DNA from: an uncultured Clostridia bacterium
GTDB lineage: Bacteria > Bacillota > Clostridia > TANB77 > CAG-508
Direction: 5' to 3'
Length of the DNA: 64,000 nt
Assembly (NCBI GenBank): GCA_944386365.1
Contig: CALXAT010000001.1
Span: 1-64,000 of the forward strand
A program made the position numbers and the translations under genes. Below are positions 4,965 to 63,509 of this stretch, piece after piece. The stretch's first letter is position 1. Every line of letters begins with the position of its first letter. A model generated the notes under the pieces. It had not been told where the DNA came from and ran no database searches. It saw only the letters and a list, made by a program, of their open reading frames with translations.

Positions 4965-5885
4965 ATGGCTAGAAGGAGAAAAACAAGTACTAAAAAAATA
5001 TTATCGACAGCTATTGCATTAATTATCATAGGAATTGCAGGAATATTAGGAACGAATGAAGAATTTGTAAATACAATTTCTAATATGGATGGACAAACAA
5101 ATCAACAAAACAAGCAACAGATAGAGTTTGTAGCACAAGACAATTTATTAATAGATTACATAGATGTTGGACAAGCAGATAGTATTCTAATTAGAAATCA
5201 AGATAAAGTGATGTTGATAGATGCAGGAACAAATGAGGCAGGAGAAACCGTTGTTAACTATTTAAAAAATTTAGGAATAGCCCAAATAGATTACGTAATA
5301 GGAACACATCCTCATGAAGACCATATTGGTGGATTAGATGATGTGATAAACAATTTTGATATTGGACAAGTTTATATGCCAAAAATACAAACAACAACGA
5401 AAACATTTAAAGATGTATTAGAAGCAATAGAAAATAAAAATCTGACAGTAACGGCTCCTAATAAAGGCGATAAAGTTGTGTTAGGACAAGCAACAGGAGA
5501 ATTTATGACAGATCCAATATTAGACGAAGATAACTTAAATTTATCATCACTTGTTCTTAGACTAGAATTTGGTAATAACAGTTTTTTGTTTATGGGAGAT
5601 GCCGAAAAAGAAAATGAAAAAACAATTAATTGGACAAAAACAGATGTATTAAAAGTAGGACACCATGGCTCTAGTACAAGTACTAGTGAAAACTTTTTAA
5701 AACAAGTACAGCCACAATATGCAATTATTATGGTAGGAAAAGATAATACATATGGTTTACCGACAGAAGAAACAATTAATAGATTGAAAAATATAGGAAG
5801 CAAAATATATAGAACAGATGAAAATGGAACAATACAATTGACATCTGATGGAAATACAATAGAAATAAAAACAAGCCTAGAATAA
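4965..5885 (+). CDS. ComEC/Rec2-type metallo-beta-lactamase-fold hydrolase, membrane-anchored (306 aa)
   Basis: A basic N-terminus (MARRRKTSTKK) and one hydrophobic segment (about residues 12-30) form a signal anchor. Residues 60-300 are an MBL domain like the soluble part of ComEC: metal motif THPHEDHIGG (HxHxDH), MLIDAGTN, LFMGDAEKENE and the late GHHGSS motif. Proteins of this type act outside the membrane on DNA or other phosphodiesters. There are no ComEC channel helices, so this is the stand-alone form. A G-rich ribosome site (GGGGGGAGG) precedes ATG 4965. Confidence 0.85.
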   Translation: MARRRKTSTKKILSTAIALIIIGIAGILGTNEEFVNTISNMDGQTNQQNKQQIEFVAQDNLLIDYIDVGQADSILIRNQDKVMLIDAGTNEAGETVVNYLKNLGIAQIDYVIGTHPHEDHIGGLDDVINNFDIGQVYMPKIQTTTKTFKDVLEAIENKNLTVTAPNKGDKVVLGQATGEFMTDPILDEDNLNLSSLVLRLEFGNNSFLFMGDAEKENEKTINWTKTDVLKVGHHGSSTSTSENFLKQVQPQYAIIMVGKDNTYGLPTEETINRLKNIGSKIYRTDENGTIQLTSDGNTIEIKTSLE

Positions 5886-59570: not shown

Positions 59571-59615
59571 AGTTGTTGTTAATTTTGGACGGTTGCAACA
59601 ACTTTTTCTTTTTTT
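59571..59615 (+). terminator. terminator downstream of tRNA-Leu(UAG)
   Basis: AGTTGTTG pairs with CAACAACT, followed by TTTTCTTTTTTT. Its T-rich end is also where leader copy A begins. Confidence 0.7.
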
Positions 59616-59745: not shown

Positions 59746-59774
59746 TTCACAATTAGTGATATATATAGTATAAT
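59746..59774 (+). promoter_or_regulatory. promoter of leader copy A
   Basis: TTCACA (59746-59751), 17-nt spacer, TATAAT (59769-59774). A TTGACA lies at 59736 but with poorer spacing. Confidence 0.65.
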
Positions 59775-59803
59775 AAAAGAAAACAAAAGAGGAGTAGAAA
59801 AGT

Positions 59804-59875
59804 ATGAAAATAAGAGCTGTAAGCCTTGAGGCTGTACACACACACACACACACACACGATATGTTTAGTAAATAA
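59804..59875 (+). CDS. leader peptide with His-Thr repeat, copy A (23 aa)
   Basis: ATG 59804 follows AGAGGAG by 9 nt. The peptide reads MKIRAVSLEAV, HTHTHTHD, MFSK. The His-Thr run is the in-frame translation of the (AC)11 microsatellite. Copy B encodes the identical peptide; the one substitution between them in this ORF (AGT/AGC Ser) is silent, which favours translation. Alternating His and Thr codons also recall amino-acid attenuator leaders. Function unknown. Confidence 0.55.
   Translation: MKIRAVSLEAVHTHTHTHDMFSK
59836..59857 (+). repeat. (AC)11 microsatellite, copy A
   Basis: Eleven uninterrupted AC units inside the leader ORF; such tracts slip readily during replication. Confidence 0.95.
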
Positions 59876-59918
59876 AAAAGGACAAGGAAAGTTAAATAAA
59901 AAAATAGATATAAATAGT

Positions 59919-59973
59919 AAAAAAGATAGTGATATAAACCTATGAAGAATAGGATTATATTGCTGTCTTTTTT
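59919..59973 (+). terminator. leader terminator / candidate attenuator, copy A
   Basis: AAAAGATAGTGATATAAACC (left arm) pairs with the right arm GGATTATATTGCTGTCTTTT, with wobbles, capped by CCTAT/ATAGG, then T run. It stands between the leader ORF and the antigen gene at 60080. Confidence 0.7.
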
Positions 59974-60079: not shown

Positions 60080-61225
60080 ATGAAAGAAAAATTTAAAAAT
60101 GTAAAAGGAATTACACTGATTGCATTAGTTATCACAATCATTGTTTTGCTAATACTTGCTGCTGTAACGATTGCAACATTAACAGGAGAGAATGGAATAT
60201 TAACAAGAGCAAGTGATGCAAGTCGAGAAAATGAAATTGCATCAGTAAAAGAACAGGCACAGTTAAATATAGCAAGTTATGTAGCAGACAAACTGAAAAA
60301 TGGAGAAGATTCAACAGTAAATACACCAGAAAAAGTACAAGAAATCTTAAATAATGCAAATACAGAAGGAAATAAATACTATAGTGGTTTTACAGAAACA
60401 GGAGTAACAACACCAAATGGATATGAGGTACCATATGAAGAATTATATACAACTGGTACAAGTGGAGAAGAAACAGCATCAAAGACAATAGAAGATTTAG
60501 TAGCAGGAGATAAAGTATATTATGATACGGGAGACCCAAGTGTAGGAAATCAGGGAATAATAGAATGTACAGTATTATATGATAAAGCATATAATGAAGC
60601 AAATGGAACAAATTACGGAGTACAGATAATATCATCAGATGTTATAAAAACTACAGATGGAACAGTAGCTACTCTTACATTAGGTGATAATAATTTTGAA
60701 GCATCAAGAGAGTCATATAATAATGCATTAAAAACATTATATGATGAGGCGCAAAAATATTTAAATTCAACATATGCAAGTGGAGCAAGATGTGTAGGAA
60801 GCGATCCAGCAGATCCAGATTGGGATACTACGACAAATGAGGCCGGATATGTTACAAAAAATGAAGGTGAAGATGATTATTATGCATACATGAAAGATTA
60901 TTATGGGACATTAAAAAATAAAGATGAAAATTATAGTACAGATTGGATGCAAATGGGGATAATAGCGGAGGTAAAGTCATCGAGTGCTAAGTATTGGTTA
61001 GCTTCGCGCATTGTTTCCTTTAATTCTCAATACAACAATTTCCTTGTGCGTTCTGTTGGTACTACCGGTGCCTTTCGTATCGATAACTTGTGCTATGTTT
61101 GGTCTTTCGGAGGTACCTCTGGCATTGGTGTTTCGTGCGGTTTACGACCTGTGCTTACTCTGAGATCTGGTATCAAGATAGCAAAAGGAGATGGAGTTGA
61201 TACACCATACACATTAGCACCATAA
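60080..61225 (+). CDS. prepilin-headed surface protein with DGR-like variable C-terminus (381 aa)
   Basis: Head VKGITLIALVITIIVLLILA (residues 9-28), a helical spacer, then an extracellular region with KTIEDLVAGDKVYYDTG. Residues 305-363 form the conserved-frame/variable-core module: YWLASR, FLVRSVG, LRPVLTLRSG. This fits the C-type-lectin-like fold of DGR targets and FGE-sulfatase-related domains. Upstream DNA is A-rich, whereas this segment is A-poor. GGGAG precedes ATG 60080. It follows leader copy A. The protein is probably displayed on the cell surface, binding an unknown ligand. Confidence 0.75.
   Translation: MKEKFKNVKGITLIALVITIIVLLILAAVTIATLTGENGILTRASDASRENEIASVKEQAQLNIASYVADKLKNGEDSTVNTPEKVQEILNNANTEGNKYYSGFTETGVTTPNGYEVPYEELYTTGTSGEETASKTIEDLVAGDKVYYDTGDPSVGNQGIIECTVLYDKAYNEANGTNYGVQIISSDVIKTTDGTVATLTLGDNNFEASRESYNNALKTLYDEAQKYLNSTYASGARCVGSDPADPDWDTTTNEAGYVTKNEGEDDYYAYMKDYYGTLKNKDENYSTDWMQMGIIAEVKSSSAKYWLASRIVSFNSQYNNFLVRSVGTTGAFRIDNLCYVWSFGGTSGIGVSCGLRPVLTLRSGIKIAKGDGVDTPYTLAP
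60992..61168 (+). other. candidate DGR variable repeat 1
   Basis: Codes for YWLASRIVSFNSQYNNF through RPVLTLRS. In 61021-61140 only 19 of 120 bases are A, against 27 of 60 at 60901-60960 in the same gene. The borders coincide with the conserved YWLASR and RPVLTLRS ends. Confidence 0.55.
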
Positions 61226-61910: not shown

Positions 61911-61939
61911 TTCACAATTAGTGATATATATAGTATAAT
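61911..61939 (+). promoter_or_regulatory. promoter of leader copy B
   Basis: TTCACA (61911-61916), 17-nt spacer, TATAAT (61934-61939), identical to copy A. Confidence 0.65.
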
Positions 61940-61968: not shown

Positions 61969-62040
61969 ATGAAAATAAGAGCTGTAAGCCTTGAGGCTGT
62001 ACACACACACACACACACACACGATATGTTTAGCAAATAA
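61969..62040 (+). CDS. leader peptide with His-Thr repeat, copy B (23 aa)
   Basis: Same peptide as at 59804-59875, same ribosome site, same (AC)11 tract. The only difference inside the ORF is a silent AGT to AGC change. Confidence 0.55.
   Translation: MKIRAVSLEAVHTHTHTHDMFSK
62001..62022 (+). repeat. (AC)11 microsatellite, copy B
   Basis: Eleven AC units, same length as copy A. Confidence 0.95.
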
Positions 62041-62088
62041 AAAAGGACAAGGAAAGTTAAATTTAAATAAAAAAATAGATATAAATAG

Positions 62089-62144
62089 TAAAAAAGATAG
62101 TGATATAAACCTATGAAAGATAGGATTATATTGCTGTCTTTTTT
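62089..62144 (+). terminator. leader terminator / candidate attenuator, copy B
   Basis: Same stem as copy A with loop GAAAG instead of GAAG-type; T run at the end. It separates leader ORF B from the gene at 62229. Confidence 0.7.
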
Positions 62145-62228
62145 GTGTTTTATACATATGTAAATTTAAAAAAAGTTTTTAATGTTAAAAGGCATATAAA
62201 TAAAAGAAAAATGGAAGGGAGAAAAAAG

Positions 62229-63509
62229 ATGAAGGAAAAATTAAAAAATAAGCAAGGTATTACTTTGATTGCACTTGTTATTACAATCATAGTTTTGCTA
62301 ATATTAGTAGGAGTAAGTATTGCGACACTAACAGGCGAGAATGGAATATTAACAAGAGCAAGTGATGCAAGAACACAAACAGAAATAGGAGATGAAATGG
62401 AAAAGGTAAAGTTATCAGCAACAGGAGCTAAAGCAGAGAATAATGGAGGAGAAATAAAAAGAAACTATTTAAATGATGAACTTACAAGTTATATAGGAAC
62501 AGAAGGAACAGATTATACATTATCAGAATCAGAAACAGCACCGTTTGTAGTAACATATTCAGATAGTGGGAGAAGCTATGTAATAGATGAGAATGGAAAT
62601 GTAAGTGAATATGTAGACATAGCGGAATCTGTCGAAGTTGGGGATTATGTAGATTATAATCCAACAGTATTGGATAAAAGCGGAACACCAGTAGAAGAAA
62701 ATAAATTAACATATACATCTCCAACAGGAAGTGGGACACAGCATGGAAACGGAAGTAGAGATCAAATATTTACAGCTACAGCAAATACAAAATGGAGAGT
62801 ATTAGATGTAGGAAATGAAACAGTAACATTAATATCCGAAAATCCTATAACAATAGATGCAGGTGGAAACTTTAGAATGTATGGTGCAATAGGATACTTA
62901 TATGCAGAACGAGAATTAAATGAGATATGTAAAATATATGGCTATGGGTATGGGGCAGATACATCACAAGTAACGAAATATAGTTATGGAGGGCCAATAG
63001 ATGGAGAATTGACAGGAGAAATAACAGGTTCAGGAGCAAGAAGTATAACCATAGAAGATATAAATAAACAAGCAGGAATTACAGAAGCAGAATATACAAC
63101 ATTAAATAGTGATTATGGAAGTACAACGAATCCAACAGTTAATGTATATTATCCAACAATAACTACATCAAATGGAAAATCAAGATCAGCAGGAGTAAAA
63201 AATTTGGAATATACTTCTTATTATTACAGCAAGACAAAAATAGAAAATCCAAATGCAAAAAATATGCTATTTAATGGAAACTACTGGTTAGCCTCTCGCT
63301 GTATCAGTCCTAGTTCAAGCTCCAGCAGCTTCATTGTGAGCGTTGTGTATGATGACAGCACGAACGCGGGCAGCTTGTGCAGTGGTGGATCGAGCTTAGG
63401 AGAGACTGCGTACAGCCATTTTGCGGTTCGCCCCGTAGTGATTCTAAAATCTAATGTCATAGATACAAATACAAATTATGAAACAGAAGGACATTGGAAT
63501 TTAAAGTAA
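62229..63509 (+). CDS. prepilin-headed surface protein with DGR-like variable C-terminus (426 aa)
   Basis: Head NKQGITLIALVITIIVLLIL, then ATLTGENGILTRASDAR as in the protein at 60080, and a different middle region (EVGDYVDYNPTVLDKSGTPV, ANTKWRVLDVGNETVTLISE). Residues 352-408 are the variable module: YWLASR, FIVSVVYDD, AVRPVVILKS. Start ATG 62229 after GGGAG; the frame opens from 62145, which lacks a site. Both proteins share head and tail frame but differ in the middle, as expected from duplication with divergence or domain exchange. Confidence 0.75.
   Translation: MKEKLKNKQGITLIALVITIIVLLILVGVSIATLTGENGILTRASDARTQTEIGDEMEKVKLSATGAKAENNGGEIKRNYLNDELTSYIGTEGTDYTLSESETAPFVVTYSDSGRSYVIDENGNVSEYVDIAESVEVGDYVDYNPTVLDKSGTPVEENKLTYTSPTGSGTQHGNGSRDQIFTATANTKWRVLDVGNETVTLISENPITIDAGGNFRMYGAIGYLYAERELNEICKIYGYGYGADTSQVTKYSYGGPIDGELTGEITGSGARSITIEDINKQAGITEAEYTTLNSDYGSTTNPTVNVYYPTITTSNGKSRSAGVKNLEYTSYYYSKTKIENPNAKNMLFNGNYWLASRCISPSSSSSSFIVSVVYDDSTNAGSLCSGGSSLGETAYSHFAVRPVVILKSNVIDTNTNYETEGHWNLK
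63282..63452 (+). other. candidate DGR variable repeat 2
   Basis: Codes for YWLASRCISPSSSSSSF through RPVVILKS. 27 of 120 bases (63301-63420) are A against 28 of 60 at 63181-63240; GC at 63361-63420 is 35 of 60. Codons are unlike the rest of the gene. Confidence 0.6.

Follow-up and report, generated by a model that had tools for sequence, protein, structure and literature searches.

A probable phase-variable, translation-coupled transcription attenuator ahead of pilin-like genes in gut Clostridia

Introduction

What does a pure run of AC dinucleotides do in a very short reading frame that is followed by a terminator-like hairpin and then by a gene for a pilin-like protein? The question arises from a stretch of 64,000 nucleotides of DNA from an uncultured Clostridia bacterium (the window), in which this arrangement occurs twice. 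An earlier interpretation of the letters alone (the sequence-only reading) had suggested that slippage in the repeat could switch the travel of ribosomes into the hairpin, and had offered attenuation in response to histidine or threonine as an alternative.

Simple-repeat phase variation is well described in Proteobacteria. A repeat-switched attenuator would be recognized by a simple repeat, its unit length indivisible by 3, that lies within a short open reading frame (ORF) with a ribosome-binding site and an ATG; by an intrinsic-terminator-like hairpin between this leader and the gene; by a shift of the leader stop from well upstream into the hairpin when the repeat number changes; and by natural variation of the repeat number at one locus. 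A coding-repeat contingency locus has its repeat inside the ORF of the switched gene.

Results

Anatomy of the Two Copies in the Window

An upstream region of about 400 bases is present twice in the window, as copy A from about position 59610 and as copy B from about 61775, and each copy precedes a gene whose product has a type-IV-pilin-like N-terminus and a variable-looking C-terminus (YWLASR...GLRPVL in the protein of gene A). The elements follow one another in the same order in both: first a promoter-like site and a ribosome-binding site, then a short ORF that contains an uninterrupted (AC)11 run, and last a hairpin whose 24-bp stem is accompanied by a T-run (Table 1). The promoter-like site of copy A is a match to the consensus and nothing more, and its function is not proven thereby. 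Hairpin A folds with −25.3 kcal/mol (z −9.5), and none of 200 shuffled sequences was equally stable. Copy A thus has the repeat in its short ORF with ribosome-binding site and ATG, and by its structure it also has the terminator-like hairpin between leader and gene, with termination itself inferred. In both window copies the repeat and the switched gene lie in separate ORFs, so that the mark of a coding-repeat contingency locus is missing. The proteins of genes A and B had no Pfam match, and an Rfam search gave, apart from the neighbouring tRNA, only sub-threshold matches of unrelated families.

Table 1. Positions of the leader, hairpin and gene elements in copies A and B
Feature	Position in window	Strand	Basis
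Promoter-like site TTCACA-17-TATAAT, leader A	59746..59774	+	Consensus scan, 11/12 matches; same sequence in copy B
Ribosome-binding site AGAGGAG, leader A	59788..59794	+	Sequence
Leader ORF A as assembled, (AC)11, 23 codons and stop, MKIRAVSLEAVHTHTHTHDMFSK; predicted OFF state	59804..59875	+	Translation
(AC)11 simple sequence repeat, copy A, proposed switch	59836..59857	+	TRF
Extended leader frame at (AC)12 or any n divisible by 3, 47 codons	59804..59945	+	Translation
Terminator-like hairpin A: 24-bp stem, 5-nt loop, T6 at 3′ end	59919..59973	+	RNA fold
Gene A, 381 aa, pilin-like N-terminus GITLIALVITIIVLLILA	60080..61225	+	ORF
Promoter-like site, copy B	61911..61939	+	Consensus scan
Leader ORF B, (AC)11 as assembled	61969..62040	+	Alignment with A, frames
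(AC)11 repeat, copy B	62001..62022	+	TRF
Terminator-like hairpin B	62083..62150	+	RNA fold, −27.6 kcal/mol, z −9.5
Gene B, 426 aa pilin-like protein, variable-looking C-terminus	62229..63509	+	ORF

The Repeat Number Decides Where the Leader Frame Ends

Let n be the number of AC units. At n = 11 leader A stops at 59873–59875 after 23 codons, just as the sequence-only reading had placed it, and translation bears out that one more unit opens a long frame: at n = 12 there are 47 codons and a stop, TGA at 59943–59945, at the tip of hairpin A, where the 5′ arm ends with the T and GA lies in the five-nucleotide loop. One unit fewer had been said to give an immediate stop. The stop is indeed early, but the word slightly overstates the case, since TAG at 59866–59868, which closes the frame at (AC)10 or (AC)13, stands three codons past the repeat. 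The stops for n = 11 and n = 10 are 43–50 nt upstream of the hairpin, and that for n = 12 is at its loop. The 6-bp insertion in copy B does leave the long frame open, as had also been claimed, and this frame too stops at the hairpin loop (its stop ends at 62116, or +94, with the loop at +92 to +97). A change in repeat number accordingly moves the leader stop from well upstream into the hairpin, a behaviour that recurs in relatives, where the frame opened by (AC)12 in leader A is kept.

To see what would follow, consider a promoter that yields an RNA on which the AC-containing short ORF is followed by an intrinsic terminator and, behind it, by a pilin-like gene that has a ribosome-binding site to itself. 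When n is divisible by 3, the leader ribosome would trail RNA polymerase into the hairpin and halt in the loop, and with the ribosome there the 5′ arm would be left unpaired and transcription would enter the gene (ON). At any other n the ribosome would halt 3–5 codons past the repeat, in this locus 43–50 nt upstream of the hairpin, and from this early stop it would follow that the terminator forms and the gene remains mostly silent (OFF). Replication slippage would alter the AC count at random, so that the cells of one population would differ. A phase-variable, translation-coupled transcription attenuator of this kind is, in our view, very probably what the feature represents. Leader translation, antitermination and switching are inferred, as is the dependence of gene transcription on the leader frame. 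The earlier proposal that slippage switches ribosome travel into the hairpin fits all the comparative evidence, and an analogous arrangement in Streptococcus gallolyticus has been proven; for the present organism, slippage-driven switching is supported and not proven, there being no transcript or translation data.

Occurrence in the Genome, the Order and Phages

The bacterium's own genome has five such leaders, two in the window, two just beyond it on the same contig and one on contig 8. They are the only AC arrays of at least 7 units in the 1.78-Mb genome, with n = 11, 11, 11, 11 and, for the copy on contig 8, 14, and as assembled all five are predicted to be in the OFF frame. Among 191 genomes from the same order, 34 matched the leader-repeat pattern; they belong to 16 of 39 sampled genera, with up to about 36 copies per genome; the reversed control pattern had no match in these 191 genomes. 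From a class-wide draw the pattern was recovered only in the window's own genome and in one other of the same order, and it was absent from all 142 genomes outside the order. When genomes of named species were scanned, the matches listed were Clostridia MAGs, nearly all labelled either with the class alone or as Clostridium, and many bearing gut-type sample names; below class, taxonomy is mostly unnamed in the records. The leader is also found on 20 viral contigs, and the annotated phage records gave no DNA match. All copy numbers are minimum values, because assemblies often break at these repeats.

Some observations on individual contigs may be added. Many metagenome contigs end less than 100 bases from a leader (L070, L084, L086, L108, L125, L129, L131), and repeated leaders seem to break assemblies. 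One 3-kb contig labelled Enterocloster (L171) has the leader and is possibly misbinned, because within the sampled class the pattern is not otherwise seen outside one order. Among IMG/VR phage contigs, L181, L198, L184, L191, L193, L194, L195 and L196 bear the leader, and several of the IMG/VR copies directly precede a small gene, the start codon of which overlaps the leader stop.

One Frame Is Open into the Hairpin Far More Often than in Shuffled Spacers

Hairpin-bearing copies, 108 of them distinct at a threshold of −12 kcal/mol or better, were compared with a null model in which the spacer from repeat to hairpin was shuffled with its dinucleotides preserved (300 trials). At least one frame reaches the hairpin in 107 of the 108 copies (shuffles: mean 45.8, maximum 57). 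Exactly one frame does so, while the other two end 15 nt or more ahead of it, in 92 of 108 (mean 31.2, maximum 42), and a stop lies at the loop ±8 nt in 64 of 108 (mean 12.4, maximum 28); in about 10 of 108 the hairpin is reached by more than one frame or by none. The tails of these copies are homologous, so that their independence is incomplete. When a single copy is retained from each 75%-identity cluster, the hairpin is reached in 39 of 40 (mean 16.7, maximum 24), and with 65%-identity clusters in 16 of 17 (mean 7.5, maximum 13); clustering at 55% identity leaves only 5 clusters, and significance is then lost for want of power.

In the copies where a single frame reaches the hairpin, this is the frame of n = 0 modulo 3 in 88 of 99 and another frame in 11; if frame 0 closes early, the loop is often reached in a different frame (e.g., L063, L138, L118). 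By the median, open-frame (ON) stops end 3.5 nt downstream of the loop centre, and those of the other (OFF) frames lie 34 nt upstream of the hairpin. Stops per spacer codon amount to 0.2% in the open frame and 16–19% in the others, which in part reflects the selection of single-reach copies. Substitutions in the spacer fall on the three codon positions as 71/92/62, without third-position excess, from which it appears that the openness of the frame, rather than the peptide it would encode, is kept; a conserved extended peptide was rejected on this ground. The arrangement of leader and hairpin is not due to chance, because the hairpin has a z value of −9.5, AC arrays are limited to leaders and the layout of frames and hairpin is recurrent.

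Repeat Numbers Vary in Nature

Across 144 distinct copies from relatives and phages, taken among the matches listed and each with at least 150 bases downstream, the repeat ranges from 7 to 28 units and covers all three frames. Variation is also seen at single loci. Two phage contigs from different metagenomes (L181 and L198) are matched at every position over 9,836 bp, except that one has (AC)17 and the other (AC)16; two others (L193 and L195) have 6,148 bp in common and differ only by (AC)14 and (AC)11; and three contigs with near-identical flanks (L184, L194 and L191) have n = 15, 12 and 13, where the 13 against 12 and 15 is predicted to span the line between ON and OFF. A one-unit difference between assemblies could be an error of assembly or PCR stutter; for a three-unit difference this is unlikely. 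Natural repeat variation at one locus is hence seen in the phage relatives; it does not rest on reads from the bacterium itself. The ten near-copies examined in a single bacterial genome (G033) have n = 9, 10, 11 and 12, and the genome is predicted to hold both states, with 4 copies ON and 6 OFF. Among the single-reach copies, 17 of 99 are predicted ON and 82 OFF, which is below one third (binomial p 0.0004, with copies that are not independent).

These numbers bear on the idea that the small peptide SL(E/G)AV-(HT)n is itself the product, made constitutively, that the hairpin merely ends its small gene and that the downstream gene has another promoter. The leader N-terminus is conserved and the terminator-like hairpin is strong, as this idea would have it, and the copies of the own genome all share one residue modulo 3, a fact that counts against a switch and, taken alone, could also fit a conserved short leader. 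In relatives, however, n takes all residues modulo 3, hence the C-terminus is not conserved, and a conserved small peptide is unlikely because its C-terminus changes frame freely. Moreover, the best same-strand promoter-like site for gene A (11/12) precedes the leader, and the interval from leader to gene A holds only a 9/12 match. We regard a constitutive peptide as very unlikely.

Three Output Forms

The leader appears, as judged from the sequences, to deliver its frame in three forms: through a terminator, by direct fusion and by coupling to a start codon. The window copies are of the terminator form, which elsewhere has among its targets glycosyltransferases (L139, L145) and a MucBP-domain protein (L138). 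Direct fusion, found in 16 copies, has one frame that continues out of the leader into a large ORF. Fused in this manner are, for example, two paralogous pilin-like genes (L036, with n = 9 and predicted ON, and L058, with n = 17 and predicted OFF), an acyltransferase (L060; PF01757), a glycosyltransferase GT87 (L088) and two type I restriction specificity subunits (L074, L112; HsdS, PF01420); in L115 and L167 the frame crosses the hairpin and continues into a pilin-like gene. In the start-codon coupling, hairpin-less phage tail-type genes follow a leader of which one frame ends on, or just past, the start codon of the gene, with TAATG, TGATG or ATGA overlaps or a short overrun (examples are L079, L097, L170, L184 and L196); for the targets of L079, L137 and L097, PHROGs gives matches to tail fibre or tail families. 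Once fused to the gene, an open frame can only mean ON, and this supports the same reading of the open frame for the other two forms.

The two restriction specificity genes, L074:3146–3703 and L112:2986–3558, are predicted to be one ON and one OFF. Switching of the methylome by these fusions is possible.

The fused copies, in which one of the three frames joins the repeat to a large gene downstream, invite the proposal that the repeat is nothing but the 5′ end of a phase-variable coding sequence, and that the terminator-bearing form is a by-product or has decayed from it. Against this, a hairpin intervenes in the 108 distinct copies analysed above, and the downstream genes usually start separately. 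Decay would also not yield one frame open into the hairpin, nor stops at the loop far above the level of the shuffles. Coding-repeat variation as the whole explanation is, in our judgment, still less credible than the constitutive peptide.

Starvation Control and Recombination

The leader encodes HTHTHTH ahead of a terminator-like hairpin, and the leaders of the his and thr operons likewise have a short His/Thr-rich peptide before a terminator. The locus might accordingly be an attenuator in which ribosomes stall on His or Thr codons when the charged tRNAs are scarce, and so alter the folding of the terminator. This was the alternative offered by the sequence-only reading, and it has become disfavoured. 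A pattern that tolerates synonyms (CAY, ACN) found 94 leaders in 55 genomes, and all 94 repeats are pure CACACA without synonymous codons, a purity to which homogenisation by slippage could contribute. There is no competing antiterminator, the leader folding no better than its shuffles (z +1.3). The targets, unrelated to those of the amino acid operons, are surface, glycosyltransferase, HsdS and phage tail genes, none of them an amino-acid gene; the repeat number ranges over all frames; and some copies are fused to their gene and have no terminator. By its codon purity, lack of antiterminator and target genes, starvation control was rejected, with even less left in its favour than for the coding repeat alone.

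Least plausible of all is that the AC repeat serves as a site of recombination or gene conversion that shuffles pilin cassettes, with incidental frame effects: near-identical leaders ahead of several tandem pilin-like genes and the many metagenome contigs that break at leaders speak for it, but it leaves frame-specific stops relative to the hairpin and the start-codon overlaps unexplained, and such a role could coexist with the switch.

Retroelements in the Same Genome

The bacterium's genome has on contig C2 (L044:3788–7277) a diversity-generating retroelement with a reverse transcriptase, a four-helix-type accessory gene, a template at 5346–5495 (−) and a pilin-like target with an FGE-type variable end; 25 of the 30 mismatches between template and variable region are at template adenines. 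On contig C16 (L045:3692–7213) a second reverse transcriptase adjoins a pilin-like target, with a 72-nt template-like stretch in which 6 of 6 mismatches are at adenines. The C-terminal ends of genes A and B (60985–61225 and 63280–63509 in the window) are richer in G+C and resemble the variable regions of retroelements. A template for the window genes was not found in the genome, and control of these genes by a retroelement is not claimed.

Discussion

The attenuator reading has its footing in the anatomy of the leaders, their recurrence in relatives and the natural variation of their repeat number, all of which are observed. Beyond the single locus, we are inclined, with some reserve, to see a portable repeat-leader module that provides a genome-wide, random repertoire of expression in an order of uncultured gut Clostridia, with three interchangeable outputs and with a place also on the tail genes of phages that belong to these bacteria. 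Its targets would be pilin-like proteins, glycosyltransferases, an acyltransferase and restriction-specificity genes. If this is true, the set of surface proteins on display differs from cell to cell, and phages make use of a switch of the same sort. The state of a gene can be read from the length of its repeat, and antigen switching in uncultured gut commensals would therefore be measurable from existing metagenomes. The conserved geometry of a stop at the loop is, in addition, natural evidence that ribosome entry into the terminator is a selected control point.

In the pyrBI operon of Escherichia coli, a ribosome that follows RNA polymerase into the terminator prevents termination, and there too the leader frame enters the hairpin. 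The present locus would share with it this translation-coupled attenuation, but the signal in pyrBI is the UTP-dependent pausing of the polymerase, whereas here it would be the reading frame as encoded by the repeat.

In the contingency loci of Neisseria, Haemophilus and Campylobacter, repeat slippage toggles surface proteins, glycosyltransferases and restriction specificity genes. The fused copies of the AC leader belong to this type; the window repeats differ from it in that they sit in a separate leader and would act by way of a terminator. Contingency loci with coding repeats are described in two papers (PMC5084427, PMC4965091).

The nearest likeness is to the pil1 and pil3 operons of S. 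gallolyticus, in which GCAGA repeats in a leader gene displace its stop codon so that it falls within a terminator hairpin (Danne et al. 2014, PMC3894217), as was proven there by repeat variants, deletion of the terminator, mutation of the start codon, chloramphenicol and expression tests. In Gram-positive bacteria, attenuation driven by repeats is on record for these two pilus operons of a single Streptococcus (PMC3894217), and a second case was not found in the open-access literature, subscription papers being outside the scope of the search. Both systems have a short leader ORF with a repeat unit that is not a multiple of 3, a change of frame that lengthens the leader until its stop falls in or near a premature terminator hairpin, short leaders that stop some 30–50 nt upstream of it, and a surface appendage as the target; the OFF stops in S. 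gallolyticus lie 39–49 nt upstream, and its ON stops within the hairpin or 4 bp before it (PMC3894217). They differ in the unit, which is AC here and GCAGA there, and in the targets, type-IV-pilin-like proteins in one case and sortase pili in the other. They differ also in number, with up to about 36 loci per genome across an order, and in phages as well, in the present case, and in that the Clostridia leader may also be fused in frame or end on the start codon of a phage tail gene. By analogy, the AC module would work like the switch in Streptococcus; common descent is not claimed. Of the 39 genera sampled in a gut-bacterial order, at least 16 have the same logic in the form of a multi-copy module, as do phages. 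The mechanism as such is already known (PMC3894217), and what is new is a module that is specific to one order, present in many copies, provided with three modes of output and common to phages.
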